The position numbers and the translations under genes are program-made. The notes under the pieces were generated by a model. It saw nothing but the letters and a program-made list of their open reading frames with translations, had not been told where the DNA came from and made no database searches. A stretch of 64,000 nucleotides of DNA from Alphaproteobacteria bacterium (GTDB lineage Bacteria; Pseudomonadota; Alphaproteobacteria; Sphingomonadales; Sphingomonadaceae). Positions 8,917-23,586 of the stretch are shown in pieces. The stretch is from contig JAFANP010000032.1 in assembly GCA_019232625.1 (NCBI GenBank), forward strand, positions 1 through 64,000, written 5' to 3'. The number at the start of each line of letters is the position of its first letter. The first letter of the stretch is position 1.

Positions 8917-9490
8917 ATCCTCCCCGGCCTTTGCCGGGGAGGGGGACCAGGCGAAGCCTGGTGGAGGGGGCCTTCCGGGGGCAGGGGGCCCCCTCCACCG
9001 CGCTTCGCGCGGTCCCCCTCCCCCGGGAAGCCGGGGGAGGATTGTGGGGGGGCGGCGGTGAAGATCCTCCCCGGCCTTTGCCGGGGAGGGGGACCAGGCG
9101 GAGCCTGGTGGAGGGGGCCTTGCGGCGGGCGAGGGGCCCCTCCACCGCGCTTCGCGCGGTCCCCCTCCCCCGGAAATCCGGGGGAGGATTGTGGGGGGCG
9201 GCGGTGACTATCCTCCCCGGCCCTGGCCGGGGAGGGGGACCAGGCGGAGCCTGGTGGAGGGGACCTTCCGGGGGCAGGGGCCCCCTCCACCGCGCTTCGC
9301 GCGGTCCCCCTCCCCCGGGAGGCCGGGGGAGGATTGTGGGGGGGCGGCGGTGAAGATCCTCCCCGGCCCTTGCCGGGGAGGGGGACCAGGCGGAGCCTGG
9401 TGGAGGGGCCTTGCGGCGGGCGAGGCCCCCTCCACCGCGCTTCGCGCGGTCCCCCTCCCCCGGGAGGCCGGGGGAGGAATGGGGGGGCGC
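8917..9490 (+). repeat. Four tandem copies of a 146-147 bp hairpin-rich repeat
   Basis: Units start at 8917, 9064, 9210 and 9356, beginning with ATCCTCCCCGGCC. Each unit holds several short inverted repeats: CCCCGGC/GCCGGGG, CCAGGC/GCCTGG around a GAAG or GGAG core, and CCGCGC-TT-CGCGCGG flanked by CCTCC and CCCCCTCCCCCGGG. Units differ by a few substitutions and single-base indels. The pieces resemble intergenic palindromes seen singly in sphingomonad genomes; here they form an array between dipZ and the CDF gene. Short reading frames inside are compositional and not coding. The array could terminate transcription in both directions. The remaining bases to 9608 show no gene. Confidence 0.93.
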
Positions 9491-9608
9491 TGTCTGAAAC
9501 GGATGCGGATGCGGGTCGTTCGGGTCCTGGCCGCCTCGCTGTTCATCGTCGTCGCGCTGCAAGAGCGGGCCAATATCGTTCTTTCGCGTGCGCTCAGGAG
9601 ATTAACCG

Positions 9609-10568
9609 ATGGCAAGCCGCTCCGAGCTCGAGGCGATCGCCCACGATCACGACTATCTCGGCGCGTCGCACGAGAGGAACGCGCGCCGCACCCTCTGGGT
9701 GGTCGCCCTCACCGCGACGATGATGGTGGGCGAGATCGTCGCCGGCTACGTCACCGGCTCGATGGCGCTGCTCGCCGACGGCTTCCACATGGCGACCCAT
9801 GCCGGCGCCCTCGCGGTCGCGGCGCTGGCCTACGCCTTCGCCCGGCGCAACGTCGACAATCCGCGCTTCACCTTCGGCACCGGCAAGGTGGGGGACCTGG
9901 CCGGCTTCGCCTCGGCGCTGGTCCTCGGCCTTATCGCGCTGGGAATCGCGGTGGAATCGGCCGCCCGCCTCGCCGGGCCGATCCGCGTCGACTTCCGCGA
10001 CGCGACCGTGGTCGCGGTGCTGGGGCTGCTCGTCAACGTCGCCAGCGCGCTGCTGCTCGCCGGAGGCGGCCACGGCCATCACCACCATGCCCACCACGGC
10101 GCCGGCGACCACCATCGCCACGACCGCCCTCATCATCACCATCCTCATCACGGCGACAACAACATGCGCGCCGCCTACGCCCATGTCCTCGCCGACGCCC
10201 TCACCTCGATGCTCGCCATCCTCGCCTTGCTCGCCGGCCAGTATCTCGGGTGGGTGTGGCTCGATCCGGTGACGGGGATCGTCGGCGCACTGGTGATCGG
10301 CCGCTGGTCCCTCGTCCTCGTCAAGGAGACGGCGGCGGTGCTTCTGGACGTCGCCGACCCGCGCCTCCTCGCCGAGGTGCGCGAGGCGGTGGAGGGAGGC
10401 GGAGGCGCGCGGGTCGCCGACCTTCATGTGTGGCGGGTCGGGCCCACCGGACATGCCGGCGTGGTCACCGTGGTCACCGCCCTCGGCACGGACGAGGTGC
10501 GCGCGCGCCTGCGCCCGGTCCAGGCGCTCCGCCATCTCACCGTCGAAGTGGTCGATGCCCCGGTTTGA
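9609..10568 (+). CDS. Cation diffusion facilitator with a His-rich loop (DmeF-like)
   Basis: The 319-residue inner-membrane protein has the six-helix CDF layout. Helix II carries LLADGFHMATHAGAL, a metal site of the D/H type seen in DmeF-like members, and helix V carries HVLADALTSM. Between helices IV and V lies a loop with 16 histidines in about 29 residues (bases 10068-10155), a metal-buffering feature. The C-terminal cytoplasmic domain (about 240-319) includes ADLHVWRVGPTGHAG, characteristic of the DmeF branch. It exports divalent cations such as zinc, cobalt or nickel by proton exchange; which metal cannot be told from sequence. It follows the tandem repeat array and stands alone on its strand. 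Confidence 0.9.
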   Translation: MASRSELEAIAHDHDYLGASHERNARRTLWVVALTATMMVGEIVAGYVTGSMALLADGFHMATHAGALAVAALAYAFARRNVDNPRFTFGTGKVGDLAGFASALVLGLIALGIAVESAARLAGPIRVDFRDATVVAVLGLLVNVASALLLAGGGHGHHHHAHHGAGDHHRHDRPHHHHPHHGDNNMRAAYAHVLADALTSMLAILALLAGQYLGWVWLDPVTGIVGALVIGRWSLVLVKETAAVLLDVADPRLLAEVREAVEGGGGARVADLHVWRVGPTGHAGVVTVVTALGTDEVRARLRPVQALRHLTVEVVDAPV

Positions 10569-10570
10569 CG

Positions 10571-10593
10571 GCCGCCGCGGCTTGCGCGGCGGC
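10571..10593 (+). terminator. GC-rich hairpin after the CDF gene
   Basis: A 9-bp perfect stem, GCCGCCGCG and CGCGGCGGC, with a 5-base loop starts two bases after the stop. There is no T run, so it is either a weak terminator or a transcript-end stabiliser. Confidence 0.45.
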
Positions 10594-10616
10594 GCCCGAC
10601 TGGGGATAGGCGCGGG

Positions 10617-11456
10617 GTGATCGTTCCAGACCTGCCCCAGACCGCCGCCGAGGTCGCCGCGCATTACGACGAGCTCGATCCCGCCTATCGCCGCATCTGG
10701 GGCGAGCACGTCCACCACGGCTATTGGGCGACGGGGCGGGAGAGCCCGTCCGAGGCCGCCGAGGCCCTGGTCCGCCTCGTCGACGAGCGCCTGGACGCCC
10801 GGCCGGGCTGGCGCCTGTGCGACATAGGCTGCGGCTACGGCGCGACCGGCGCCTGGCTGGCCGACGCGCGGGGAGTCGAGGTGACCGGCTTCACCCTCTC
10901 GGCGGCGCAGGCGGCGGTGGCCGAGGCGCGGGCCGCGCCCGGCTTCGTCTGCTTGCGGCGCGACTGGCTGGCCAACGGCCTCGCCGACGCCGCCTTCGAC
11001 GCCGCCTACGCCATCGAGAGCTCGGAGCACATGGTCGACAAGGCGCGCTTCTTCTCCGAGGCGGCGCGGGTGCTTCGGCCGGGCGGCCGGCTCGTCGTCT
11101 GCGCCTGGCTGGAAGGGGAGAGCGCGCAGCCTTGGGAGATACGCCACCTCCTCAAGCCGATCTGCAGCGAGGGCCGCCTGCCGGGCATGGGAAGCCGCGC
11201 CGACTACGAGGCGATGGCGGCCGCCGCCGGTTTCCGCCCGACCCGCTACGACGATATCAGCCGCGAGGTCCGCCGAACCTGGTCGATTTGCCTGCGCCGC
11301 CTCGCCGCGGCGCTTATCGCCGACCCGGCGATCCGCCGTCTCGCCCTCGACCGCGCGTCGACCAGCCGCGCCTTCCTCCTCAGCGTCCCCCGCCTGATCG
11401 TCGCGCTTCGGACGGGAGCGATGCGCTACGGCGTCTTCGTCTGGGAGAAGGGCTAG
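10617..11456 (+). CDS. Class I SAM-dependent methyltransferase (small-molecule type)
   Basis: The 279-residue protein has a Rossmann methyltransferase core: motif I LCDIGCGYGATGAWLA at about 65-80, an acidic/hydrophobic strand 2, YAIESSEHM as motif II/post-motif, and VLRPGGRLVVCAWLEGE as motif III. The YDELDPAYRRIWGEHVHHGYW start and GYGATG motif are typical of cyclopropane-synthase or tocopherol/sterol-type methyltransferases acting on lipids or quinone-like compounds. Translation starts at GTG 10617. A second methyltransferase follows 58 bases later on the same strand, so the two may act in one pathway. The substrate is unknown; no polyketide synthase or hydroxylase that would define it is present here. 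Confidence 0.85.
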   Translation: MIVPDLPQTAAEVAAHYDELDPAYRRIWGEHVHHGYWATGRESPSEAAEALVRLVDERLDARPGWRLCDIGCGYGATGAWLADARGVEVTGFTLSAAQAAVAEARAAPGFVCLRRDWLANGLADAAFDAAYAIESSEHMVDKARFFSEAARVLRPGGRLVVCAWLEGESAQPWEIRHLLKPICSEGRLPGMGSRADYEAMAAAAGFRPTRYDDISREVRRTWSICLRRLAAALIADPAIRRLALDRASTSRAFLLSVPRLIVALRTGAMRYGVFVWEKG

Positions 11457-11514
11457 CGGCGGCGGCGCGCTTCGCGCATGGTGGCCGGGGCGGGCGCAGG
11501 CTGTGGAGTGCCGC

Positions 11515-12222
11515 ATGGGAAAGCTCGAAATCCGCTCGCGCCAGGAAGAGCAGATGGACGCGCCGGACCTCGATCCGGCGGTCTACGAGACGGTCCTCCA
11601 CCACCTCGCCCGGGTCAACCGTTTCACCTTCACCGCCTGGCCGACCCTCGCCTTCCTCGGCCGCGCCGTCGGCTCCGCGAGGCGCTTCCGCCTGCTCGAC
11701 GTCGGCTTCGGCGACGGCGACGTGCTCCGCGCCGTCGCCCGCTGGGCCCGCCGGCGCGGCCTCGAAGCGGCGCTTGTCGGAGTCGACCTCAACGAGAAGA
11801 GCGTCAAGGCGGCCCGCGATTCGACGCCGCCGGATCTCGGCATCGACTATCGCGCCGGGGACTATGCCGACCAGGCGGGGCCGTTCGACTTCATCGTCTC
11901 CAGCCAGGTGACCCACCATATGAGCGACGCCCAGCTCCTCGCCTTCCTGCGCCACATGGAGGCGGAGGCGCGGATGGGATGGCTGGTCTGCGACCTCCAC
12001 CGCCTCGCCTTCGCTTATTGGGGCTTCCCGCTTCTCGCGCGGCTGCTCATGGTCCACCGCATCGTCCGCGAGGACGGGCGCCTGTCCATCGCCAGGTCCT
12101 TCCGCCGGGAGGATTGGGAGGATTATCTGCGCCGGGCCGGTCTCGCGCCGTCCGACGTGCGGATCGTCCGCCGCTTCGCCTCCCGCCTCTGCGTCGAGCG
12201 GGTGAAGCGGCCGGTCTCCTAG
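11515..12222 (+). CDS. Class I SAM-dependent methyltransferase
   Basis: The 235-residue protein has motif [17 protein letters not shown] and [14 protein letters not shown] as the adenosine-binding acidic strand. The segment [13 protein letters not shown] follows, then a hydrophobic C-terminal half ([16 protein letters not shown]) that may touch a membrane or a hydrophobic substrate. ATG 11515 was chosen because GGAG lies six bases upstream; GTG 11503 is the alternative. Such proteins occur beside type III polyketide synthases (alkylresorcinol-type clusters) in some bacteria, but no synthase is in this window, so the role is open. Its stop overlaps by four bases (CTAG) that of the convergent gene. 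Confidence 0.85.
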
Positions 12223-13544
12223 TCCGCCGCCGTGACCCGCCAGACCGTGTTGCCGACGTCGTCGGCGACGAGCAGAGCGCCGCTCCGGTCGACGGCGACC
12301 CCCACGGGCCGTCCCATCGCCTCGCCCGCCGGGGTCAGGAAGCCGGTGAGGACGTCTCGCGCCGGCCCCGACGGCCGGCCGTCCGCGAAGGGCACGAAGA
12401 CGACCTTGTAGCCGCTCCTCGGCTTGCGGTTCCAAGAGCCGTGCTGGCCCACGAAGGCGCCGCCGGCGAAGGCCGGGCCGAGCCGCGCCCCTTGCGCGAA
12501 GGCGAGGCCGAGGGAGGCGGTGTGGGGGCCGAGCGCATAGTCCGGGACGATCGCCCGGGCGACCAGGTCCGGCCGCCGGTCGCGGGGCTTGATGCGCTCC
12601 TCCGGATGCTGGCCGTAATAGCTGAACGGCCAGCCGTAGAAGCCGCCGTCGGCCACGCGGGTCATATAGTCGGGGACGAGGTCGCTGCCGATCTCGTCCC
12701 GCTCGTTGACGGTCGTCCACAGCGCTCCGGTGGCGGGCTCGAAGGCCAGCCCCACCGGGTTGCGCAGCCCCGTCGCATAGGGCCGATGCTCGCCCGTCGC
12801 CGGGTCGACCAGCCAGATGGCGGCGCGGCCCTCCTCCGCGGGAAGGCCGTTCTCCCCGACATTGCTGTTGGAGCCGATGGCGACGTAGATCCGGCCGCCG
12901 TCGGGGGAGACGAGGAGGTTCTTCGTCCAATGGTGGTTGATCTCGCCTGCGGGCAGGTCGGCGACGCGCCGCGGCGCGGCCGAGATCGAGGTCTCCCCCG
13001 ACCGATAGGGGAAGGCGAGGACCGCGTCGGTGTCGGCGACGTAGAGCGTGTCGCCGGAAAGCGCCATGCCGAACGGCGCGTTGAGGCCGGCGAGGAGGAC
13101 CGACCGCGTCTCCGCCACCCCGTCGCCGTCGGCGTCGCGCAGAAGCGTGATCCGGTTCGCGCTCGGCACGGCGCCGCCCGCCTTCTTCTGGAACAGCTTG
13201 AAGAAGAAGCCCTTGAGGCCGCGTCCGTCCTTCGGGCGCTCGGGGGCGTTGGTCTCGGCGACCAGCACGTCGCCGTTCGGAAGGACCGCGAGCCAGCGCG
13301 GATGGTCGAGCCCCCGGGCGAAGGCGCGGACCCGAAGCCCGGCGGCCGCGACCGGGGCGGCGCCGGCCGGCCAGTGCACCGCCTTGGCGACGTTCACCGT
13401 TGGGATCGGCGCGTGCACCGGCGGCGGCAAAGCGGGCGAGGGGCCCATGCCCTGCTCGACGCGCAGCCTGGCGCGGTCGCCGCAGGCGGCGAGCCCCAGC
13501 GACAGCGCGAGGATCGCAAGGAAGGCAGGCTTGTCACGGGTCAT
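12219..13544 (-). CDS. PQQ-dependent sorbosone/glucose dehydrogenase-like lipoprotein
   Basis: The 441-residue protein begins with a lipoprotein signal (hydrophobic stretch ending in lipobox LAAC at about residue 21), so it should be anchored facing the periplasm. The rest is a six-bladed propeller of the GSDH/sorbosone dehydrogenase family: [51 protein letters not shown], and a closing block with [19 protein letters not shown]. Members oxidise aldoses or sorbosone using PQQ and pass electrons to the respiratory chain. No PQQ biosynthesis genes are in the window and the true substrate is uncertain. ATG 13544 was chosen; GTG 13556 is possible. Confidence 0.85.
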
Positions 13545-13603
13545 GGCGAGTCTCACCGCCGGTTACGGCAGTGGAATGTCCGAGCGCGCCCTTGCGTTCC
13601 CCG

Positions 13604-14092
13604 CTAGCCGAGCTCCACTTCCGCCACCTTGTCGCGATAGTCCTTCTTCGGATCCGAGCCGAGCAGCGCCTTGATGCCGGCGACGAAGCTCGAGCCGTCG
13701 AGCCAGATCTCCGCCCGCTCCGCATCCAGCCTCAGCAAGGCGAGCTTGGGATCGTCCTTGCCGCCCTCGAACCAGGCCGCGACGAACGGGTTCCACAGCC
13801 GGTCTATCACGGCGCGGTCGGTGTCGAGGGCGAGGCGGCCGTGGACGGTCGCGAAGAGGTCGTGGCCCTTCGAGACGAAGGTCGCGATCGCGCGGTCGCC
13901 CCGCCCCAGCGCCTCGACGAGCGCATTGTCTTTGGCGGTGAAGAACCAGATCGGCCCGCCCTCATCCTCCTCGATCTGGGCGGTCATCGGGCGGGCGTGG
14001 CCGTCCTCGACGCCGTCGAGGCCGAGCATCATCGTCATGTCGGACTTGAGCGCCTTCCAGAAGCGGGCTTTCATCTCGTCGGGCGTCGCCAT
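13604..14092 (-). CDS. Pyridoxamine-phosphate-oxidase-fold general stress protein
   Basis: The 162-residue protein belongs to the split-barrel FMN-binding family (general stress protein 26 type): GHARPMTAQIEEDEGGPIWFFT forms the first strands of the barrel, DRAIATFVSKGHDLFATVHGRL the next, and LWNPFVAAWFEGGKDDPKLALLRL the family-typical C-terminal block. Such proteins bind FMN or related flavins and are linked to stress or cofactor reduction; their reaction is seldom known. A clear SD (AGGAGA) sits six bases before ATG 14092. It is divergent from the five-gene operon starting at 14229, so the 136 bases between them hold both promoters. Confidence 0.88.
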   Translation of the reverse strand: MATPDEMKARFWKALKSDMTMMLGLDGVEDGHARPMTAQIEEDEGGPIWFFTAKDNALVEALGRGDRAIATFVSKGHDLFATVHGRLALDTDRAVIDRLWNPFVAAWFEGGKDDPKLALLRLDAERAEIWLDGSSFVAGIKALLGSDPKKDYRDKVAEVELG

Positions 14093-14228
14093 CACAATCT
14101 CCTCGAAAACCTTCCGGCACAACCGCGCGGAGGCCGGGAGCGTTCCCCGAAGCGGGACAAGCGGCGCTGGCGCGATGCTAAAGATCGGGTAACCTCGATC
14201 GGCTAGGACGCGGCACGGGGGAGGCGGG

Positions 14229-15173
14229 GTGCAGGCATATGCGATCTGGCGGGCGGTGAGGGGATCGCATCTCGATCTGCGCTTCCGCCCCAGCCGCGAA
14301 TTCACGGTCGAGATCGTCGAGCGGCCCGGCGCCTGGCTCGCGCCGGAGCGGCTCGAGCGGCTCGTCCGATCCTGCCGCCAGGTGGCCTCCGCCTGCCTCG
14401 ACGGCCGGGCGCTCGACTACGGCCTCTTCGCCCCCGACGGCGGCGCCTGGCGGCGCAGCGTCGTCACCCTCGTCAGCCGCGCCGCCGACGGCCGGCCGAT
14501 CGCCTTCAACGCCATGCCGCTGCTCCCCGTCCAGCGTGGCGGGCAGAAGGCGGAGGTCCTCCACCTCGGCCTCGTCATGGTCGATCCCGGCGAGCGCGGC
14601 TCCGGCCTTTCCTGGATCCTCTACGGCCTGACCTGCTTCGCCTTGTTCCTGCGCGGCCGCATGCGCCCCCTCTGGATCAGCAGCGTCACCCAGGTGCCGG
14701 CGGTGGTCGGCATGGTCGCCGAGACGTTCGACGACGTCTATCCCGCCCAGGCGGGGACGGCGCCGACCTTCGCCCATCGCCACATCGCCCACCAGATCAT
14801 GGCGACCGAGCGCGGCGCCTTCGGCGTCGGGGCGGAAGCCGAGTTCGATCCCGTCCTCCAGGTGATCCGCAACGCCTATACCGGCGGCTCCGACAATCTG
14901 AAGAAGAGCTTCGAGGTCGCCGCAAAGCACCGCGACGAACGCTACAACCTTTTCTGCGCCGAGGCGCTCGATTATGCGCGGGGCGACGACGTGCTGCAGA
15001 TCGGCCGCATCGACCTTCGCACCGCCCGGCGCTTCCTGGTGCGGAGCGTGCCGCGAAGCGCCATCCCGCAGCTGGCGGTGCAGGGGCTGTTCATCGCCTT
15101 GCAGGCCGCCGTCGCGCCGCTTCTCCAATGGCTCGACGCCAGCCGCCCCCTCGGACGATTGAGGCCCGCATGA
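14229..15173 (+). CDS. Putative acyltransferase (GNAT-like), first gene of the ThiF operon
   Basis: I do not recognise a named family. The 314-residue protein shows one GNAT-like stretch at about 112-135, LHLGLVMVDPGERGSGLSW, where V-P-x-x-R-G-x-G-L resembles the acyl-CoA pyrophosphate loop. It is preceded by a predicted beta-rich half and followed by a mostly helical half. There is no signal peptide; the C-terminal 25 residues are hydrophobic (LAVQGLFIALQAAVAPLL) and may be a membrane anchor or amphipathic helix. An N-acyl amino acid synthase-like role is conceivable but unproven. It starts at GTG 14229 with GGGGGAGG upstream, and its stop overlaps the ATG of the ThiF-like gene (ATGA). Confidence 0.7.
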   Translation: MQAYAIWRAVRGSHLDLRFRPSREFTVEIVERPGAWLAPERLERLVRSCRQVASACLDGRALDYGLFAPDGGAWRRSVVTLVSRAADGRPIAFNAMPLLPVQRGGQKAEVLHLGLVMVDPGERGSGLSWILYGLTCFALFLRGRMRPLWISSVTQVPAVVGMVAETFDDVYPAQAGTAPTFAHRHIAHQIMATERGAFGVGAEAEFDPVLQVIRNAYTGGSDNLKKSFEVAAKHRDERYNLFCAEALDYARGDDVLQIGRIDLRTARRFLVRSVPRSAIPQLAVQGLFIALQAAVAPLLQWLDASRPLGRLRPA

Positions 15174-16045
15174 CGACCCCGTTCAACTATGCCGAAATGA
15201 CCACCCGCAACCGCGGCTTCGTCGGCGAGGAGGAGCAGGCGCGGCTGCGCGCCGGCTGCGTCTTCATCCCCGGCGTGGGGGGCATGGGGGGCGCGGCGTT
15301 CATGGCCCTGGTGAGGGCCGGCGTCGGCCGCTTCGTCATCGCCGACATCGACGTCTTCGAGGTGTCGAACCTCAACCGCCAGCTCTTCTCGACCCTGCCC
15401 GCAATCGGCCGGCCCAAGGCCGAGGTCGCCCGCGAGACGGCGCTGACCATCAATCCCGAGGCGCAGATCGAGCTGCTCGGGGCGGAATGGACGGCGCAGC
15501 TCGACCGGCTGCTCGAGGCGAGCGACGTCGCCGTCAACGGCATGGACGACGCCGCGGCCGGCGTTCACCTCTATCGCCGCGCCCGCGCGCTTCGCCGGAC
15601 GGTGATCGACGCCTACGCCTCGCCCTTGCCCTCGGTCACCGTGGTGGCGCCGGACGCGCCGCGGCCGGAGGAGCGGCTGTCCTACCCGACGCGCGGCACG
15701 GAATGGACGGCGATCACCGCCGAGATGCGGGCCGAATGCCTGGTCAAGGAGATCGAATATGTCCTGACCCACAGCGCCTCGCACAAATATGTCGACCTCG
15801 CCGTCGCCGCGGAGGTCGCGGCGGGGAAAAGGTCGCGCTTCTCCTTCTCCACGATGGTGACGATGGCCGGGACCTTGATGGCCGAGGAGGCGATCCGCGC
15901 GATCCTCGGCCGCCCGAGCGGCACCGACCATCGCGGCTATTTCTTCAACCCCCATCGCGCCCGCGTCGAGCGGCCGCTCGCGGCGCCCCTGGCGGCGGTG
16001 CGCGGCTTCGCCGTGCGCCGCTTCATGCGGCGGATGATGGGGTGA
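15170..16045 (+). CDS. ThiF/E1-like adenylyltransferase
   Basis: The 291-residue protein has the adenylating Rossmann domain of the ThiF/MoeB/E1 family: glycine loop PGVGGMGG at 34-41, acidic ADIDVFEVSNLNRQ (Arg70 and Gln71 for ATP), Lys83 in GRPKAEVA, and NGMDD at 123-127 for magnesium. The family adenylates a C-terminal carboxylate of a small protein or peptide, or a free acid. Unlike MoeB and ThiF it lacks the paired CxxC zinc knuckles: only two cysteines exist, Cys30 and Cys190, and Cys190 (RAECLVKE) is the better candidate for a thioester residue. No ThiS/MoaD-like carrier is encoded nearby, so this is not a standard thiamine or molybdopterin gene. It overlaps both neighbours by four bases. 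Confidence 0.85.
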   Translation: MTTPFNYAEMTTRNRGFVGEEEQARLRAGCVFIPGVGGMGGAAFMALVRAGVGRFVIADIDVFEVSNLNRQLFSTLPAIGRPKAEVARETALTINPEAQIELLGAEWTAQLDRLLEASDVAVNGMDDAAAGVHLYRRARALRRTVIDAYASPLPSVTVVAPDAPRPEERLSYPTRGTEWTAITAEMRAECLVKEIEYVLTHSASHKYVDLAVAAEVAAGKRSRFSFSTMVTMAGTLMAEEAIRAILGRPSGTDHRGYFFNPHRARVERPLAAPLAAVRGFAVRRFMRRMMG

Positions 16046-17181
16046 TCCCTCCGGTCGAGCTCCTGCTCGGCGGCGCCGCTCTGGCCGCGGCCGCCGTCGC
16101 ACGGGCGGGCGTCGCCGCGTCGGCGCGCCGCTCGCCCGTCGCCGCCAGGCTGCGGACCCTCTATTCGCTGCTCGCCGCCTTGTTCGCGCTTCGGCTCGCC
16201 GCGAGCGCGTGGGCGTCGCCGCTCCCCGCCATCCTGCTGATGCTGGTCGCCGCCTGGCTGCCGCTCGCGGGCCTGCGGCTGGTCGAGGAGCTGCGCCGGC
16301 GCCACGCGCCGCGCCCGGTCAAGCTGGCGGCGCTGGGCGGCGCGCTCGCCTTTTCCCTGGTGGCGGCGACGGCGGGCCTCGTCTGGAGCGGCCCGGCCAT
16401 CATTGCCCTTGCCGCCTACCAGCTGGCCGGAATGGCTGCGATGATCGCCCTGCTCGGGCGCGGCCGGGGGGATCTTGCGCCCGCCGAGCGGCGCACCGCC
16501 GACACGTTCCTTCTCGCCTTGCTGATCGCCGCGCCGCTCGCCCTCACCGACTTCCACGCCTTGTGGCCGGACGCGCCGGTCCGCGGCGGGCCGTTCGCGC
16601 TTCTGGTCCTCGTCCTCGCCACCTCCCGCCTCGCCTCCGCGGAGGGCTCGCCGGGGCGGCTGCTGGGCGACGTCGCGCTGCTCCTCGCCAGCGGCGGCTT
16701 CGCCGCCCTTGCCGCCGCCGCCGCCGTGCCGGGGGTGGCGCGCGACGCAGGGCCGGCCGTCGCCGCGGCGGGCGCGGCGGTGGCGGCCCTCGCGCTCGTC
16801 GCCGACCGCGCCGCCGGGAGCGCGGCCGGAGGCGCGGGCCTGCTCGCGGCGCTGGCGCGCGCGCCGGGAGAGGGCGTGGCGCTGCTCGCCTCGCACCCGA
16901 TCCTGGCCACGGGCCGGGTGCTCGGGCCGAAGGAGCTCGCAGCCTATCCCGAGGCCGCCCTCGAGCCCCTCGGCCGCCACCGGGTGATCGGCGCGGACAT
17001 AGAAGATGCCGAGGCGCGCGAGGCGGCAGGCGAGATACTCGCCGCCACGGCCGCCACCCACCTCCTGCGCCTCTCGCGCCGGCCTCTGTCGCTGCTCGCC
17101 ATCGCCGCGGGCGGCCTCGCCGGCCGCGCCTTGGACGACGAGCTGGAGATCGTCGCCCGGCTGGTGGAGAAGGACCTATGA
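16042..17181 (+). CDS. Unknown polytopic membrane protein of the ThiF operon
   Basis: I do not recognise the family. The 379-residue protein is strongly Ala/Leu-rich. Hydrophobic segments at roughly 3-24, 40-70, 90-130, 155-185 and 205-260 suggest about eight membrane helices. A more polar C-terminal part (about 275-379) contains SHPILATGRVLGPKELAAYP and ends LEIVARLVEKDL. It starts at GTG 16042 overlapping the ThiF-like stop (GTGA) and ends overlapping the next ATG (ATGA), so translation is coupled on both sides. It could be a transporter or a membrane-bound enzyme for the product of the operon. No catalytic motif is evident. Confidence 0.75.
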   Translation: MIPPVELLLGGAALAAAAVARAGVAASARRSPVAARLRTLYSLLAALFALRLAASAWASPLPAILLMLVAAWLPLAGLRLVEELRRRHAPRPVKLAALGGALAFSLVAATAGLVWSGPAIIALAAYQLAGMAAMIALLGRGRGDLAPAERRTADTFLLALLIAAPLALTDFHALWPDAPVRGGPFALLVLVLATSRLASAEGSPGRLLGDVALLLASGGFAALAAAAAVPGVARDAGPAVAAAGAAVAALALVADRAAGSAAGGAGLLAALARAPGEGVALLASHPILATGRVLGPKELAAYPEAALEPLGRHRVIGADIEDAEAREAAGEILAATAATHLLRLSRRPLSLLAIAAGGLAGRALDDELEIVARLVEKDL

Positions 17182-18275
17182 ACGTGGAGCTGGTGAGCGG
17201 CGACCGCGACGCCTTCTTCGAGGCGCCGTTCAACGCCTATCGTCCGGGGGATGGCTATGTCTCGCCCTTCCGGTCCGATCTCCTCCGCATGCTCGATCCG
17301 GCCGCCAACCCGCTGTGGACGGCCGGCAATCCCTGGCGCTTCTGGACCGCGCACCGGAAGGGCCGGCCGATCGGGCGGATCGTCGCCCACGTCCATGGCC
17401 AGTCCAACGCGCTCCACGGCCTCAGCCGCGCGCAATTCGGCTTCTTCGACTGCGCCGACGATGGGGAGGCCGCACGGGCGCTTCTCGACGCCGCCGCCGG
17501 CTTCGCGCGCGAGACGGGGCAGAGCGAGCTGGTCGGCAATTTCAATCTTACCGCCATGCAGCAATCGGGAGTCCAGACCGGCGGCTTCGGCGCCCGCGCC
17601 TATACCGACATGATCGTCAATCCGCCGCACGTCCCGCGCCTCCTGGAGGCGAACGGCTTCCGGCCCTTCTTCCCGATGCGCACCTTCGAGCTCGATCTCG
17701 CCGCGGCGGCGCCGCATCCGGCGCGCGCGCTCGATCCGGGGGAAGGCTATCGCTTCGCGCCGATCGAGCGCGCCACCTTTCCGGAGCGGATGGAGGAGGC
17801 GCGGATCGTCCTCAACGACGGCTTCGCCGGGAACCCGATGTTCGTTCCGCTCACGCCGGAGGAATTCCGCTTCCAGGCGGGCGAGATGATGTCGATCCTC
17901 GACCCGCGCCTCTCCTCGGTTCTGCTCCAGGGCGAGCGGCCGGTCGGAACGATCGTCTGCATCCCGGACCTCAACGGCTTCCTCGCCGCCACCCGCTCGC
18001 GGATCGGCCTCGCCACGCCCTTCCACTATCTGCGCTACCGCTGGCGGCGGCGGCGGGCGGTGATCATCTTCTACTCGGTGGTGAGCGACCGCCACGGCGA
18101 GGGGCTGATGGGGGCGATGCTGGCGCGCACCCTCGCCGCGCTGAGGGCGGCGCGCTACGAGCGGCTCGGCATCACCTGGATCGCCGACGTCAACGCCGCC
18201 AGCCTGCGCCAGATGGAGCGGCTCGGCGCCAGGCCGCTCCAGCGCCTCCACTTGTTCCGCAAGGAGATCGGCTGA
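17178..18275 (+). CDS. YghO-like GNAT-family acyltransferase
   Basis: The 365-residue protein resembles the YghO-like GNAT group. It has an N-terminal block of the type FNAYRPGDGYVSPFRSD followed by LDPAANPLWTAG, a GRIVAHVHGQSNALHG strand and FGFFDCADDGEAARALLDAA. The second half carries another GNAT-like domain (about 185-365) with YSVVSDRHGEGLMGAMLARTL as the acyl-CoA loop and a final WIADVNAASLRQMERLGARP. GNAT enzymes transfer an acyl group from acyl-CoA or acyl-carrier protein to an amine. Bacterial ceramide synthase has been reported to be GNAT-like, so a lipid amine substrate is one option; that is inference. It lies inside the overlapping operon. Confidence 0.8.
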   Translation: MNVELVSGDRDAFFEAPFNAYRPGDGYVSPFRSDLLRMLDPAANPLWTAGNPWRFWTAHRKGRPIGRIVAHVHGQSNALHGLSRAQFGFFDCADDGEAARALLDAAAGFARETGQSELVGNFNLTAMQQSGVQTGGFGARAYTDMIVNPPHVPRLLEANGFRPFFPMRTFELDLAAAAPHPARALDPGEGYRFAPIERATFPERMEEARIVLNDGFAGNPMFVPLTPEEFRFQAGEMMSILDPRLSSVLLQGERPVGTIVCIPDLNGFLAATRSRIGLATPFHYLRYRWRRRRAVIIFYSVVSDRHGEGLMGAMLARTLAALRAARYERLGITWIADVNAASLRQMERLGARPLQRLHLFRKEIG

Positions 18276-19270
18276 TGGTGGGCGGCATCCGCAGCCTGGT
18301 CGAGCAGGCGATGCTCGCGCCCAGCGTGCACAACGTCCAGCCCGCCCGCTGGCGGATAGAGGACGGCGCCGCCCTTCTGCTCGAGGAGGCCGGCCGGCGG
18401 CTCGCCGTGGCCGATCCGCGCGGCAACGACGCGGCGATCAGCCTCGGCGCCGCCGCCGAGGGCCTTCGCCTGGCGGCGAGCCGAGACGGCCTGTCGGCGG
18501 TCGCCGAGACGGACGCCCTTCCGAAGCCCGCCGGCGGGCTCCGGCCGGTCGCGCGCTACCGCTTCGTGCCTGGGGCCGAGGCCGACCCGCTCGCTTCCCT
18601 CGTCGACGCGCGCCGCTCCTGGCGGGGCGCCTTCGAGCGTCCCACCCCGGCCGACCGCGCCGCGGCCCTCGCGCTGGCGGGGGAGGACGCGGCCGTCTGC
18701 GCCGATGCCGACGCCCTTCGCGAAATGGCCCGGCGCTTCGACCGGGCCAGCTACGGCTTCATGCGCGACCCCGCCTTCCGGCGGGAGCTCGTCTCCTGGA
18801 TGCGGCTGTCGCGCCGCCACCCGCGCTGGTCCGCCGACGGCCTCAACGCCGAGGCGATGGCGATGGGGCGGATCGAGGCGCTGGGCGCGGGGGTGGTGCT
18901 GGGCCCCGCCTTCCGCCCGCTCGACCGGATCGGCCTCGCTCCCGCTTTGCTCGCGGAGGGGAGCAAGGTCGCCGGGTCGGCCGCCCTGGTCGTGTTCCAC
19001 CGGCCCGAGGCGGAGGATCCGTTCGTCAGCGGCGGCCATTTCTACCGGCTCTGGCTCCGCCTCGAAGCCGCCGGCTTCGGCGCCGCGGTCCTCGCCGCTC
19101 TGGCCGACGATCCCGACGCGGCGCGCGAAGTGGCGGACTTGACCGGAATCCCCGCCGGCCGCCGCGTCGTCAGCGCCTTCCGCATCGGCCGCCGCCCGCC
19201 CCGCGCCCAGGCGCCGCGCGCCCGCCGGCCGATCGAGGAAGTGCTGGTTGAAGGGGGACAGGCTGGTTGA
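18275..19270 (+). CDS. Nitroreductase-like FMN protein (Acg-like), C-terminus altered by a repeat
   Basis: The 331-residue protein has the FMN-binding nitroreductase signature APSVHNVQPARW (15-26). A divergent duplicated-fold body follows, including RRSWRGAFERPTP, FYRLWLRLEAAGFGAAVLAAL, and TGIPAGRRVVSAFRIGRRPP, the usual last strand before the C-terminus. This is the pattern of the Acg/Rv3131-like group, which are atypical nitroreductases. In actinobacteria a ThiF domain and such a domain occur fused (Rv1355c-type, from memory), which supports a joint function with the gene at 15170. Its ATG shares a base with the upstream stop. The last residues read into a repeat: the 3' end from 19136 is present three times, and this copy ends EVLVEGGQAG instead of a WGQ-type end as in the other two. 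Confidence 0.82.
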   Translation: MVGGIRSLVEQAMLAPSVHNVQPARWRIEDGAALLLEEAGRRLAVADPRGNDAAISLGAAAEGLRLAASRDGLSAVAETDALPKPAGGLRPVARYRFVPGAEADPLASLVDARRSWRGAFERPTPADRAAALALAGEDAAVCADADALREMARRFDRASYGFMRDPAFRRELVSWMRLSRRHPRWSADGLNAEAMAMGRIEALGAGVVLGPAFRPLDRIGLAPALLAEGSKVAGSAALVVFHRPEAEDPFVSGGHFYRLWLRLEAAGFGAAVLAALADDPDAAREVADLTGIPAGRRVVSAFRIGRRPPRAQAPRARRPIEEVLVEGGQAG

Positions 19271-19272
19271 AG

Positions 19273-19324
19273 GGGGACAGTAACTATTTGTCCGCGAAAG
19301 GCCGGACAAATAGTTACTGTCCCC
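19273..19324 (+). repeat. 52-base palindrome, copy 1
   Basis: The arms are 22 bases each and fully complementary (starting GGGGACAGTAACTATTTG), with loop CGAAAGGC. The arm ends GGGGACAGTAACT resemble termini of REP-like elements associated with RAYT transposases. Confidence 0.92.
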
Positions 19325-19449
19325 ATCCCCGGACTTGACCGGAATTCCCGCCGGCCGCCGCGTCGTCAGCGCCTTCCACATCGGCCGCCGCCCGCCTGGC
19401 GCCCAGGCGCCGCGCGCCCGCCGCCCGATCGACGAAGTGCTCGTCAAAT

Positions 19450-19501
19450 GGGGACAGTAACTATTTGTCCGCGAAAGGCCGGACAAATAGTTACTGTCCC
19501 C
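19450..19501 (+). repeat. 52-base palindrome, copy 2
   Basis: Identical to copy 1 over arms and loop. The preceding coding fragment reads into it and stops at the TAA within the left arm. Confidence 0.92.
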
Positions 19502-19626
19502 ATCCCCGGACTTGACCGGAATCCGCGCCGGCCGCCGCGTCGTCAGCGCCTTCCGCATCGGCCGCCGCCCGCCCGGCGCCCAAGCGCCGCGCGCCCGCCG
19601 CCCGATCGACGAAGTGCTCGTTGAAT

Positions 19627-19678
19627 GGGGACAGTAACTATTTGTCCGCGAAAGGCCGGACAAATAGTTACTGTCCCC
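19627..19678 (+). repeat. 52-base palindrome, copy 3
   Basis: Identical to copies 1 and 2. It ends nine bases before the stop codon of the convergent cytochrome gene, so it may also terminate transcription from both sides. Confidence 0.92.
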
Positions 19679-19686
19679 ATTCCCCA

Positions 19687-21327
19687 TCACAGCCGCTTCA
19701 GATATTCGATGAGCTGCCGTTTCTGCTCGGGGGGCAGGGTCTCGCCGAAGCGGTGGCCGTCCTTGCCGCGGCCGGGGGCGCGCGTGTCGATCCAGGCCGG
19801 CACGGAGAAGGGCCGATAGCCCGGCGGATAGGCGCCGTCCGGCGCCAGGCGCAGCCCGACCGCGTCGAAATCCAGGGCATGGCCGCCGACCAGGAATCGC
19901 GCCGGCCGCTCGCCGGGCGACAGCAGTGCGGCGAGCGTCGGCACCGAGCCGTTGTGCAGATAGGGGGCCGAGGCCCACAGGCCGGCGAGCGGCGGAGCGG
20001 CATAGCCCCCGCCCGACGCCGCGGCGATCCGGTCGCGATAGGCCGTCCTTCCAACCGCCGCGGCGAGGGCGGCGTCGAACAGGGTGGCGCGCAGCGGGTC
20101 CGTGCCCACCCCGCCGATCCAGTTGGGAAAGCGGATGAGGCGCGGCTGAGCCACGCTCGCATCGTAGCTGCCGTGACAGGCGGCGCAGGCCGCGGCGTAG
20201 ACGGTCCGCCCCTTCGCCGCCGCCGCCAGGTCGACGGGGCCCGGGAAGGGCTGGGGCCGATAGGTCTTCAGGAACGCCATGATGTCGGTCGCGTCGTCGA
20301 TATGGCCGAGCGCGGCCTGCGGATGGACGCCCATGCTCGGGACGGTGAAGAAGGTCATGATCTCGGCGAGCCGGCGCAGGTGGCGCCGGTCGAGGGCGCC
20401 GGCGGTGGTCGGGCTGTTCCTCGGCCGGCCGGGCACCGCATAGGCGCCGTCGGCGAGGAGGCTGGTGCGCCATATCCGGTCGCCGAGATCGGGGATGGAG
20501 ACCACTCCCGAATCCTCCGCGCCGCCGCCCGCCAGCGGGACGCGGAGCGCGGCCTTCAGAGCGGCGACGCCGTTGGTGCTCCCCGGCGCGCCGTTCGGGA
20601 AGGGCAGGGGACGCTCCGACCCCTCCAGCGCGGCGAGCCGCCGCTTCGCGAGCGGCAGGACGAGGAAGCGCATCGTCTGGCGCTCCCGCCACCCCATTTC
20701 CGGGAACAGGCGCGCCGCCGCGGGCAGGAGCCGGTCGGAGCCGGCGAAGCGCCGCATCGCCCGGAACACCGCAAGCGTATAGGCTTCGAGGTCGATCGAG
20801 CTGTTGGGCATGCCCAGCATCGCCCGGTCCGGCCGCGGCGTCCCGTCCGCCGCGTAGGTGACGCCGGCATGGCAGGCCGCGCAGCCCAAATTGGCGACCC
20901 GCACCCTGGCGCCCCCGACCGGCGCCAGGTCGCCATGAGTGAAGCCGAGCGGCAGCTCCGAGTTGCGAGGCCCGACGCCGGCGGGCGCGTTGACGATGGC
21001 CGCGCCCGGAAGGAAGCCGAAGCGCCGGAGGATCCGGTCGAGGGTCGCACGGTCGAGCCGCGCCGCCGGGTCGCGCGCCCGCTCGTCCAGCACCAGCGCC
21101 GCCGCGACCAGCCGCCAGGGCACCGCGTTCGTCTCCAGCGCGTCCATGCCCACCCCGCCGAAGCCGGCGCCGGCAAAGGCGGCGGCGCCTCTGGCCGGCG
21201 CGCCGGCGCCCGGGGCGACGGGCGGGCGGGAAAGCGACTCGGTCTCGCTGCGGGCGGTCGCCCAGAGGAGGAGGGCCGCCGCGACGAGCGGGGCCGCCGC
21301 CAGGCCGAGGCGCCGGCCCCACCTCAT
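19687..21327 (-). CDS. Exported diheme c-type cytochrome (cytochrome c peroxidase/RoxA-like)
   Basis: The 546-residue protein starts with a membrane segment or signal (about 6-24). It has two CXXCH haem sites, CAACH in ANLGCAACHAG and CAACH in AAACAACHGSYD. The downstream stretch WASAPYLHNGSVPTLAALL is the hallmark of the diheme peroxidase/RoxA/MauG superfamily. The usual length for bacterial cytochrome c peroxidase is about 330-350 residues, so this is one of the longer relatives. It probably works in the periplasm as a peroxidase or oxygenase; the reaction is not determined. Its ATG overlaps the stop of the alpha/beta hydrolase gene upstream (21324), so the two form an operon. Confidence 0.85.
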   Translation of the reverse strand: MRWGRRLGLAAAPLVAAALLLWATARSETESLSRPPVAPGAGAPARGAAAFAGAGFGGVGMDALETNAVPWRLVAAALVLDERARDPAARLDRATLDRILRRFGFLPGAAIVNAPAGVGPRNSELPLGFTHGDLAPVGGARVRVANLGCAACHAGVTYAADGTPRPDRAMLGMPNSSIDLEAYTLAVFRAMRRFAGSDRLLPAAARLFPEMGWRERQTMRFLVLPLAKRRLAALEGSERPLPFPNGAPGSTNGVAALKAALRVPLAGGGAEDSGVVSIPDLGDRIWRTSLLADGAYAVPGRPRNSPTTAGALDRRHLRRLAEIMTFFTVPSMGVHPQAALGHIDDATDIMAFLKTYRPQPFPGPVDLAAAAKGRTVYAAACAACHGSYDASVAQPRLIRFPNWIGGVGTDPLRATLFDAALAAAVGRTAYRDRIAAASGGGYAAPPLAGLWASAPYLHNGSVPTLAALLSPGERPARFLVGGHALDFDAVGLRLAPDGAYPPGYRPFSVPAWIDTRAPGRGKDGHRFGETLPPEQKRQLIEYLKRL

Positions 21328-22145
21328 CCGAGGAACGCCTCGACCGCCTCGGCGAAGCGCTCCGGCTGCTCCCAGTGCGGATAATGGCCGCAGGAATCGA
21401 TGAGCCGCAGGTCTGAGCGCGGCAGCAACGCCGCGGCGCGGGCCGCGTAGCGAGCGGGGAAGACCCGGTCCTCGCGGCCCCAGAGGACCAGGGTCGGGCG
21501 GTCGAAGCGGCGGGCGAGCGCCTCGACCCTGTCCAGGTCCTTGCCGCCGAGGAGGCCGACCCCGGACCGCAGGGTGCGGACGAACGAGCGCTCGCTTCCC
21601 GGCAGCGCCGCATAAAGGTTGGTGAGGTCGAGGAGCGCCGGGGTGACGTGGCGGGGATCGTGCATGGCGAGGCGCAGCGTGAGCCGGTTGTTGAACGGCG
21701 TGGGCCGGCCCAGCCAGGGGCCGATCAGCGGCAGCGCCGGCAGCCGCATCAGGGGATGGGTGCGCCGCCCGAACCCACCCGGCGCGGCAAGCACGGCTTT
21801 GTCGAACCGCTCCGGCGAAAGCGCGAACAGGTGGAGGAGGAGGCTCGCGCCGAGGGAGCTGCCGACGAGATGGGCCCGCGCGATGTCCAGGGCCTCGAGC
21901 AGCGCCCGCAGATGCTCCGCGAAGAAGGCGCCGTCATAGGCGCCGTCGGGGCGGTCGGCGAGGCCGAAGCCCGGAAGGTCGAACGCCACAACCCGGAACC
22001 GCTCCGCCAGGCGGGGCCGCACCCGGTCCCATATCTCGATCGCGTTGGCGAGGCCGTGGACCAGGACGAGCGCCGGTCCCGCGCCGCCGCTGTCGACGAC
22101 GCGCGTCCGGAGGCCGGTCGCCAGGCGGACGGTCGAGCTTAGCAC
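21324..22145 (-). CDS. Alpha/beta-fold hydrolase
   Basis: The 273-residue protein has the canonical fold: LVLVHGLANAIEIWD oxyanion region, nucleophile elbow GSSLGAS, acid region VLWGREDRVFP and catalytic His in SCGHYPHWEQPERF, the last motif typical of meta-cleavage-product and related hydrolases. It could cleave esters or C-C bonds; the substrate is unknown. The start was set at GTG 22145, which precedes the conserved body by about 20 residues and has GGGAG upstream; earlier in-frame residues look non-coding. Coupling with the diheme cytochrome suggests a joint oxidative pathway, in which an oxygenase or peroxidase product is hydrolysed. Confidence 0.85.
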   Translation of the reverse strand: MLSSTVRLATGLRTRVVDSGGAGPALVLVHGLANAIEIWDRVRPRLAERFRVVAFDLPGFGLADRPDGAYDGAFFAEHLRALLEALDIARAHLVGSSLGASLLLHLFALSPERFDKAVLAAPGGFGRRTHPLMRLPALPLIGPWLGRPTPFNNRLTLRLAMHDPRHVTPALLDLTNLYAALPGSERSFVRTLRSGVGLLGGKDLDRVEALARRFDRPTLVLWGREDRVFPARYAARAAALLPRSDLRLIDSCGHYPHWEQPERFAEAVEAFLG

Positions 22146-22209
22146 CTGGGCGAACCACTCCCCGCTTCGAGACCAAGAGGATGGCCCGCCGCGGCCGCCG
22201 AGGCCATCG

Positions 22210-23088
22210 CTATTTCGCGGCCTCGGTCTTCTTGTCCTCCGTCGCCGTCTCGAAGTCGCCCGCCTCGTGGCGCTCGCGCAGCTGGCCCGCAGGATCGCCG
22301 GTGACTCGGTTGACCATGCGTCCGCGCCGCACCGCCGGCCGCGCCGCGATCGCCTCCGCCCACCGCCGGACATGGGCATATTGGCCGACCTGGAGGAATT
22401 CGCCCGCCTCGTACAGCTCGCCCCGCGCCAGCAGCCCGTACCACGGCCAGGCGGCGATGTCGGCGACGCCATAGTCCGGCCCGGCGAGATACTCGCTCTC
22501 GGCGAGGCGGCGGTCGAGGACGTCGAGCTGGCGCTTGGTCTCCATCGCGTAGCGGTTGATCGGATATTCGAATTTCTCGGGCGCGTAGGCGTAGAAATGG
22601 CCGAAGCCGCCGCCGACGAACGGGGCGCTGCCCATCTGCCAGAACAGCCACGAGAGAGCCTCGGCGCGCGCCGGCCCGCTCGGCGGCAGGAACTCGCCGA
22701 ATTTCTCCGCGAGGTACATGAGGATGGCTCCGGATTCGAAGATCCGCACCGGCTCCGGGCCGCTCCGATCGAGCAGTGCCGGTATCTTGGAGTTCGGATT
22801 GACCTCGACGAAGCCGCTGGAGAACTGGTCGCCCTCGCCGATGTTGATCAGCCACGCATCATATTCCGCCCCCCCATGGCCTTTCGCGAGCAGCTCCTCG
22901 AGCATCACCGTCACCTTGATGCCGTTGGGCGTGCCGAGCGAGTAGAGCTGGAGGGGATGGCGCCCCACCGGGAGCGGCTTGTCGTGGGTCGCGCCGGCGA
23001 CGGGGCGGTTGATGTTGGCGAAGCGGCCGCCGCTGGCGCTGTCCCACGTCCAGACGGCGGGGGGCGTGTAGGAAGGGGAGTCGCTCAT
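22210..23088 (-). CDS. yghU: YghU-type glutathione S-transferase (disulfide-bond oxidoreductase)
   Basis: The 292-residue protein follows the E. coli YghU pattern closely from residue 10 on: VWTWDSASGGRFANINRPVAG, PLPVGRHPLQLYSLGTPNG, EVNPNSKIPALLDRSG, ESGAILMYLAEKFG and RPAVRRGRMVNR. The C-terminal tail QLRERHEAGDFETATEDKK is also conserved. YghU-family enzymes bind two glutathione molecules and reduce disulfides or peroxides in the cytoplasm. ATG 23088 aligns with the family start; an ATG six codons upstream at 23106 is also possible. It is divergent from the DUF2946 gene at 23179. Confidence 0.93.
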   Translation of the reverse strand: MSDSPSYTPPAVWTWDSASGGRFANINRPVAGATHDKPLPVGRHPLQLYSLGTPNGIKVTVMLEELLAKGHGGAEYDAWLINIGEGDQFSSGFVEVNPNSKIPALLDRSGPEPVRIFESGAILMYLAEKFGEFLPPSGPARAEALSWLFWQMGSAPFVGGGFGHFYAYAPEKFEYPINRYAMETKRQLDVLDRRLAESEYLAGPDYGVADIAAWPWYGLLARGELYEAGEFLQVGQYAHVRRWAEAIAARPAVRRGRMVNRVTGDPAGQLRERHEAGDFETATEDKKTEAAK

Positions 23089-23178
23089 AGTCGGGTCGTC
23101 CTTCATCCGAGGTGTCGGAAGGAGGTGGCCGGCCGGCGGCGGATTGCAAGCCCCCGGGGTCCGGGCGTAGCAGGGGCC

Positions 23179-23550
23179 ATGCGACGCGGCGATCACCGCA
23201 GAAGTCTCGCGCTGCTGCTGGCGCTGCTGCTGCTGCGCCTGGCGGTGCCGGCCGGCTTCATGGTCTCGCCGGCGGCGGGGCTGGCGCTGATCCCCTGTCC
23301 CGCCGCGTCCGTGCATGCGGCGGCCGTTCACGCCGGCCACGGGCCCGACGGGCAGCCGGCGACGGGCGACCATCAAAGCTGCCCCTACGCCGCCTTGTCG
23401 GCGCCCTACCTGCCGCCGCACCCGGGCTCCGTCGAAGCCCCTCCGCCGGCCGGGCCGACGATCGAGCCGGCACTGCCGCGGCTGGTCCTGTCCGTCGCCC
23501 CGGCGGCCGGGATGCCGCCCTTCGCACGAGGCCCTCCGTCCCCGCGCTGA
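23179..23550 (+). CDS. DUF2946-like exported Cys/His-rich small protein
   Basis: The 123-residue product has an N-terminal hydrophobic signal (about 10-30). A short region with potential metal ligands follows: LIPCP, several His (VHAAAVHAGHG, GDHQSCPY), then a proline-rich tail. This arrangement matches the DUF2946 group, often found just before a TonB-dependent receptor, as here (37 bases). The spacing and shared strand suggest co-transcription and a role in metal (possibly copper) acquisition or sensing. Metal identity is not shown by the sequence. Confidence 0.72.
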   Translation: MRRGDHRRSLALLLALLLLRLAVPAGFMVSPAAGLALIPCPAASVHAAAVHAGHGPDGQPATGDHQSCPYAALSAPYLPPHPGSVEAPPPAGPTIEPALPRLVLSVAPAAGMPPFARGPPSPR

Positions 23551-23586
23551 TCGACGCCTCGGCAACGACACGCGAAGGAAGACCCA

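Follow-up and report, generated by a model that had tools for sequence, protein, structure and literature searches.

The DNA analysed here, called the window, is a stretch of 64,000 nucleotides from an alphaproteobacterium of the family Sphingomonadaceae (assembly GCA_019232625.1, contig JAFANP010000032.1, positions 1 to 64,000). It carries a tightly packed operon of five genes on the forward strand, designated A to E, and beside it a sixth gene, H, on the reverse strand. Gene A (14229-15173, GTG start, 314 amino acids (aa)) encodes a putative acyltransferase with a predicted GNAT fold that belongs to no named family, gene B (15170-16045, ATG start, 291 aa) a ThiF-type adenylating enzyme, and gene C (16042-17181, GTG start, 379 aa) a polytopic membrane protein for which no family is known. 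Gene D (17178-18275, ATG start, 365 aa) encodes a GNAT-family acyltransferase and gene E (18275-19270, ATG start) an Acg-like flavin-dependent oxidase (FDO), the proposed desaturase. H (19687-21327, 546 aa) is a RoxA/FadCcp-like di-heme c-type cytochrome with an N-terminal export signal or anchor.

Neighbouring genes of the operon overlap by ATGA at 15170, GTGA at 16042 and ATGA at 17178, and D and E share base 18275 within TGATG. An initial annotation of this DNA had described five genes on one strand with an overlap or a shared base at every junction, and its coordinates were confirmed. The junctions in related loci (25 loci compared) are likewise short overlaps, mainly of four bases, and the arrangement is therefore not a product of chance. 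The initial gene list was incomplete, however, because H was overlooked, which accompanies A-E in 24 of the 25 loci. In the window H is convergent to A-E, its 3' end lying about 420 bases downstream of E. The same convergent downstream position was found in 21 loci, whereas H is divergent and upstream in L055, co-directional and downstream in L057, and co-directional and upstream in L058.

Conservation, distribution and mobility

The genome contigs of 84,980 species were scanned for B using a two-row alignment and two peptide patterns, a search that misses distant relatives. This gave 42 matching stretches, 26 of which encode relatives; one of these (L060) ends at a contig edge, leaving 25 complete loci. 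Profile searches detected A and B in all 25 complete loci, D in 22 and both E and H in 24. The C profile matched in every locus as well, but it had been built with the membrane proteins of L057 and L058 included. A profile built without these two proteins does not recognise them (E 5.8 and 0.53 among all open reading frames (ORFs)), and we therefore count 23 of 25 loci as having a C that is recognisable from its sequence. The two remaining loci encode a membrane protein of similar size directly upstream of A, a correspondence of position only, as homology to C is not demonstrable. Frameshifts split A in L038 (two pieces), E in L040 and B in L059.

A similar picture was obtained by tblastn against 72,556 plasmid records. 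A matches ten records and B matches the same ten; E finds these and three weak actinobacterial records, D finds these and 16 more (five among the matches listed at 26-32% identity), and C finds a single record. Eight of the ten plasmid loci were examined by profile, and all of them contain A-E, with some genes in pieces in L081-L083. The initial annotation had proposed co-occurrence of the five families in other genomes as a check, and they do co-occur, in the 25 loci as well as on plasmids. A-E is a real, conserved unit. The pairwise distances of the six families A-E and H are correlated with r of 0.92-0.97 over 13-22 shared loci, the values for H being no lower than those between operon genes; common species history would by itself account for a part of this, and no control gene is available. 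Among the neighbouring genes, no family outside A-E and H occurs in more than three of 27 loci compared (ORFs of at least 90 aa, a size limit that passes over genes as small as those for ThiS or MoaD). In the three loci for which gene tables exist, A, C and E are annotated as hypothetical proteins.

The cassette is patchily distributed and is also found on large plasmids. A was detected in two of 26 genomes of the genus, which are also the two with a close B, and B in seven of 396 genomes of the order (E <= 1e-60). The tree places B of L045, a metagenome-assembled genome (MAG) labelled Rhizobium, together with B of Qipengyuania (support 100/98), which fits horizontal transfer; the cassette is probably mobile.

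Properties of the gene products

B matches the ThiF family PF00899 with E 1.2e-35. In NCBIfam it scores highest on PRK08223 (124.8 bits against a cut-off of 266) and PRK14851, in both cases below the cut-off, and these two models also score highest on all seven ThiF-FDO fusion proteins scanned from the same order. Among solved structures MoeB (85.4 bits) and ThiF come nearest, and PaaA (61.8 bits) and MccB are also among the PDB matches. In a midpoint-rooted ThiF tree of 44 rows, the 15 B proteins and the ThiF halves of the seven fusions are separated with support 99/93 from 22 other ThiF-family rows. The latter were not individually identified, and the fusions are uncharacterised relatives of OxzB and TrzS; the tree includes no characterised cyclase. 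All 15 aligned B proteins possess the GxGGxG glycine-rich loop and invariant D59, R70, K83 and D126. D126 aligns with the TD of MoeB and ThiF, and it corresponds to D217 of TrzS by way of ThiF, TrzS itself not being in the alignment; D217 has been equated with the ThiF aspartate (PMC12856293). C190 (window 15737-15739) is conserved in 14 of 15 B proteins, with serine in L055, and may have a catalytic or a structural role.

The initial annotation had further stated that the E1-like enzyme lacks CxxC zinc knuckles, that no carrier protein lies nearby and that the operon serves neither thiamine nor molybdopterin biosynthesis; all of this agrees with our results. CxxC motifs are absent from all 15 B proteins. 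Between 9000 and 24500 there are 73 frames of 50-130 aa. A terminal GG is found in two of them, both without a Pfam match, leaving no candidate for ThiS or MoaD in this interval. Elsewhere the genome encodes a protein that matches the ThiF family better than B does (238.7 bits, compared to 122.8). On these observations and the tree position, we reject B as a sulfur-carrier E1.

A is invisible to family searches: it has no Pfam match at E <= 1, only a chance-level ClpP match in NCBIfam (E 0.14), and only a designed protein in a sequence search of the PDB (E 2.3). Its AlphaFold model (pLDDT 82.7) retrieves GNAT enzymes with Foldseek, the best being NatD/NAA40 (E 3.9e-5, TMq about 0.3), and we take A to be an acyltransferase on the basis of this predicted GNAT-like fold. 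In an RxxGxS motif, R123 and G126 are conserved in 20 of 22 sequences. Membership of A in the FeeM or the exosortase-acyltransferase family was not supported, as sequence, PDB and hhalign comparisons gave no match, and neither was a relationship of A to D. The two acyltransferase-like proteins of the initial annotation thus differ in standing, D being a recognised GNAT protein (PF00583, E 3.9e-5) and A a predicted fold.

D has one full-length paralogue in its own genome (154 bits, 26% identity). We presume, with this paralogue as the only protein compared, that D belongs to the group of YghO and bacterial ceramide synthase (bCerS)-like proteins. A neighbour of the paralogue, considered as a serine palmitoyltransferase, is by eye a class III aminotransferase, and a bCerS context is unsupported. 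Searches for D at E <= 0.001 were negative throughout the genomes of L052, L053 and L056, which are MAGs whose completeness is not given.

C has no Pfam match at E <= 1. Its model (pLDDT 86.4) shows approximately seven to nine transmembrane helices and a small C-terminal alpha/beta domain, and hydropathy gives seven helices for the protein of the window and six to nine for four relatives. The fold search with this model was not significant (best E 0.18). A likeness to G-protein-coupled receptors was rejected, because the fold matches at E 0.18 or worse are meaningless, and so was a truncated PrsK-type sensor (seven transmembrane helices and GAF domain), with an hhalign probability of 0.6%.

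E reaches 146 bits (E 1.2e-42) on the Acg/Rv3131 FMN (flavin mononucleotide) oxidoreductase model NF047509, which is below the cut-off of 199, and its family profile finds Acg in the PDB (2YMV, E 6.9e-13). The S, H, N, Q and P of its SxHNxQP motif are invariant in 17 of 17 sequences. The profile also detects the FDO half of six of the seven ThiF-FDO fusions, at 20-40 bits. Directly after E, at 19243-19685, we observed a 19-bp duplication that contains the stop codon of E, followed by a 177-bp unit repeated 2.3 times, which consists of an inverted repeat and, as judged by eye, of sequence copied from the 3' end of E. A 21-base half-site of this unit has 18 forward and 18 reverse copies in the genome (control 0). 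The repeat looks like a REP-type (repetitive extragenic palindromic) element that has carried along a piece of E.

H matches the RoxA-like family PF21419 (E 4.2e-19), and RoxA itself is its nearest solved structure by sequence (4B2N, E 6.8e-25). Its scores are below the curated cut-offs, both for RoxA (42.7 of 1000) and for the best NCBIfam model, di-heme cytochrome c peroxidase NF040606 (136.3 of 150). Two CxxCH motifs are present in 17 of 17 H proteins and a PYLHNGSV-type motif, with variants allowed at three positions, in 16 of 17; the heme spacing, from first cysteine to first cysteine, is 220-244 residues (232 in the window). W451 is invariant in all 17 sequences, unlike any other tryptophan of the window protein, and is at most a candidate for the inter-heme tryptophan (W302 in RoxA, W251 in PA2077). 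The N-termini resemble export signals, several of them with a lipobox by eye, so that H is probably periplasmic.

The association of H with the operon was tested in the 396 genomes of the order, where B and H were searched with the same settings and over the same genomes (E <= 1e-60). H occurs in six of the seven genomes with B and in none of the 389 without it (Fisher p 1.4e-12), and in all six it lies within about 5 kb of B. A class-wide sample was too sparse for such a comparison (H in one of 289 genomes, its own). In plasmid loci of Shinella and Ensifer, H is replaced on the strand opposite to the operon by genes annotated as acyl-[ACP]-phospholipid O-acyltransferase (ACP, acyl carrier protein), YiaA/YiaB and PspA (L078, 12347-16855; L079, 12226-16709).

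A putative acyl-oxazolone pathway and its alternatives

In known acyl-oxazolone systems the N-acyl amino acid formed by an acyltransferase is cyclised by a ThiF homologue at the expense of ATP and desaturated by an FDO with O2 (PMC10404671, PMC12856293). Oxazolones are destroyed by acid and by alcohol (PMC12856293). Since the operon contains the same three kinds of genes, we propose that A acylates, B cyclises and E desaturates. By this analogy we consider it somewhat probable that the locus encodes an extended variant of acyl-oxazolone or dehydro-N-acyl-amino-acid biosynthesis; this concerns the core chemistry, and both product and substrate are inferred. A would N-acylate an amino acid, by analogy an aromatic one, using a fatty acyl-coenzyme A or acyl-ACP. 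B would adenylate the carboxylate and thereby lead to closure of a 5-oxazolone, and E, as an FMN- and O2-dependent oxidase, would desaturate it, the product being either an alpha,beta-dehydro N-acyl oxazolone or the dehydro N-acyl amino acid formed from this by hydrolysis. Of the two acyltransferases, A is the likelier one for the first step, because D is lost in three of 25 loci that keep A. D might then add or exchange a second acyl group, C might bind, sense or move the product at the inner membrane, and H might act as a periplasmic di-heme enzyme that oxidises the product, most plausibly at the acyl chain or the exocyclic C=C bond. Our confidence in the roles given to C, D and H is low.

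The initial annotation had pointed to actinobacterial Rv1355c-type proteins, in which a ThiF and a nitroreductase-like domain are fused, and had suggested an acylated, adenylated and redox-tailored metabolite or lipid. The pointer was sound, as the Rv1355c-type protein TrzS has been characterised as an acyl-oxazolone synthase (PMC12856293). For the same reason the core chemistry can now be stated far more specifically; the general idea of the annotation fits the evidence but falls short of this detail. Its suggestion that the membrane protein serves export or membrane assembly is neither strengthened nor contradicted by our results.

Several observations weigh against an acyl-oxazolone pathway. 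A is not recognisably a synthase of the OxzA, TyzA or FeeM type: neither FeeM nor an N-acyl-homoserine lactone synthase is among the best 50 of 971 fold matches, and hhalign gives a probability of only 0.2% for a relationship to the TIGR03694 exosortase acyltransferases encoded beside ThiF-FDO fusions. By sequence, E is closer to Acg than to the FDOs of oxazolone synthesis, scoring 146 bits on the Acg/Rv3131 model and 42 on the Rv1355c model. In the fused FDOs this preference is reversed, with 142-172 bits for Rv1355c in six of seven (at the threshold applied, L110 gave no score) and 75-116 bits for Acg in the six of seven that a genome search found (from G041, G042, G046-G048 and G037). FDO-A, and not FDO-B to which Acg belongs, has been tied to oxazolones (PMC10404671). 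This, together with the Acg preference, suggests that an oxidase of the Acg type may have been recruited, as E, to accompany a cyclase of the oxazolone type. E has no match in the genome of L058, a MAG of which the completeness is not given. Finally, a genome-wide search found no H in G663, the seventh order genome with B, or in the genome of L047, and H is missing from seven of eight plasmid loci; H is therefore not essential.

Other explanations share parts of this evidence. Like MccB and PaaA, B could activate a carboxylate so that an amide or ester is formed, and thus join acyl groups from A and D to an amine or alcohol without any oxazolone, E oxidising the joined lipid. Both enzymes are among the PDB matches of B, a larger lipid would suit two acyltransferases and a membrane protein, and the higher score of E on Acg than on Rv1355c also agrees with this scheme. 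We regard it as unlikely, however, because B sits with the ThiF halves of the ThiF-FDO fusions, whose characterised member TrzS cyclises (PMC12856293), and because B is closer to MoeB than to PaaA (85.4 against 61.8 bits). A pathway resembling that of sphingolipids or aminolipids, with D as the main N-acyltransferase and B and E tailoring the head group, would make use of the kind of acyltransferase that bCerS represents in sphingolipid synthesis (PMC11087976). The full-length similarity of D to a second GNAT protein of the genome and the phospholipid O-acyltransferase found in the place of H in the annotated Ensifer and Shinella loci are in line with it. Three loci, and the genomes they belong to, have no match to D and yet keep A, B, C, E and H, no further neighbour family recurs in more than three of the 27 loci compared, and the likeness of D to bCerS is presumptive; such a pathway is therefore quite improbable. 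That B is a standard E1 of thiamine or molybdopterin biosynthesis, served by a distant ThiS or MoaD, has the ThiF fold and the proximity to MoeB and ThiF structures in its favour. We nevertheless give this next to no credence, in view of the missing CxxC motifs, the position of B apart from the other ThiF rows, the better ThiF-family match elsewhere in the genome, the interval of 9000-24500 devoid of a ThiS or MoaD candidate, and the occurrence of the operon in just two of 26 genus genomes by the search for A.

A further alternative concerns H only, which might be a periplasmic peroxidase or electron sink that copes with H2O2, or with reactive by-products arising from the FDO and from what it makes, and have no tailoring function. 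Its best NCBIfam model is a di-heme cytochrome c peroxidase, desaturation by FDOs needs O2 (PMC10404671), and some operons exist without H. The solved structure closest to H in sequence is RoxA, though, and the fatty-acid enzymes PA2077 and PA2078 have been reported to possess a similar PYLHNGSV motif and a similar heme spacing (PMC4496055). Moreover, in the order sample H occurs only together with the operon, which would not be expected of a general peroxidase. We consider the peroxidase role doubtful.

Within the acyl-oxazolone reading, the most far-reaching version is a new lipid class: an acyl-oxazolone or dehydro-amino-acid lipid made by an undescribed acyltransferase family (A), given a second acyl group by D, and handled by a new membrane family (C) and a periplasmic di-heme dioxygenase (H). 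We put this forward tentatively, as a possibility on the unlikely side. If true, it would join acyl-oxazolone chemistry and oxylipin-type oxygenation in one mobile cassette. The genes behind acyl-oxazolones have come to light only lately, and what these molecules do is still an open question (PMC12856293). A separate alphaproteobacterial version that also includes a further acyltransferase, a membrane protein and what is probably a periplasmic oxygenase would reveal where the product goes and how it is finished. Environmental hosts are available in which an acyl-oxazolone-type pathway can be tested, Sphingopyxis sp. LC363 and Parasphingorhabdus marina DSM 22363 being two that have all six genes, and the natural variants without D, without H or without E are ready-made experiments for assigning the steps.

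Comparison with known systems

No description of this gene set was found by title or abstract in the open-access literature. ThiF and FDO domains are shared with PEP-CTERM/exosortase loci from sibling families in the same order, where the two are fused (seven loci, L106-L112). A TIGR03694 acyltransferase is encoded beside the fusion in five of the seven (L107, L108, L109, L110 and L112) and PrsK nearby in three (L106, L107 and L110); an EpsB-type glycosyltransferase was observed in L107, the only locus scanned for it. The acyltransferase of these loci has no detectable relation to A or D, nor PrsK to C, and the profiles of A, C, D and H gave no match at E < 0.1 in any of the seven. Oxazolone-type lipids may be linked with exosortase/exopolysaccharide systems.

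H shares with RoxA and the FadCcp proteins PA2077 and PA2078, which have been reported as a fatty-acid dioxygenase and diol synthase pair (PMC4496055), the two CxxCH motifs, the PYLHNGSV motif and a similar length. Its heme spacing of 232 residues compares with 245 and 235 in PA2077 and PA2078 and 199 in RoxA, values given without a stated counting method in the available part of that report. In contrast to these enzymes, H lies below the curated cut-offs for RoxA and for di-heme peroxidases and is tied to a ThiF/FDO operon.

The nasY-type clusters for thalassotalic acids, kyonggic acids and stieleriacines combine, like the operon, an acyltransferase with ThiF and nitroreductase family proteins. 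This trio has been tied to dehydrotyrosine lipids, for which an oxazolone was not seen, and counterparts of the GNAT protein D, the membrane protein C and the di-heme protein H are not mentioned in the available part of the report (PMC12479983).

The closest parallel is provided by OxzAB of Pseudoalteromonas rubra and by TyzACB and TrzAS of Mycobacterium, in which an acyltransferase, a ThiF-type cyclase and an FDO are encoded adjacently or fused and make acyl-oxazolones (PMC10404671, PMC12856293; OxzAB by way of the same papers). B groups with the fused ThiF class, as would be expected of a cyclase of the Oxz, Tyz or Trz kind, the fusions in the tree all being uncharacterised ones, and, as in Tyz, B and E are not fused. 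Unlike these systems, the operon has an A of no identifiable family and an E that scores best on Acg/Rv3131, and it adds the membrane protein C, the second acyltransferase D and the di-heme cytochrome H.

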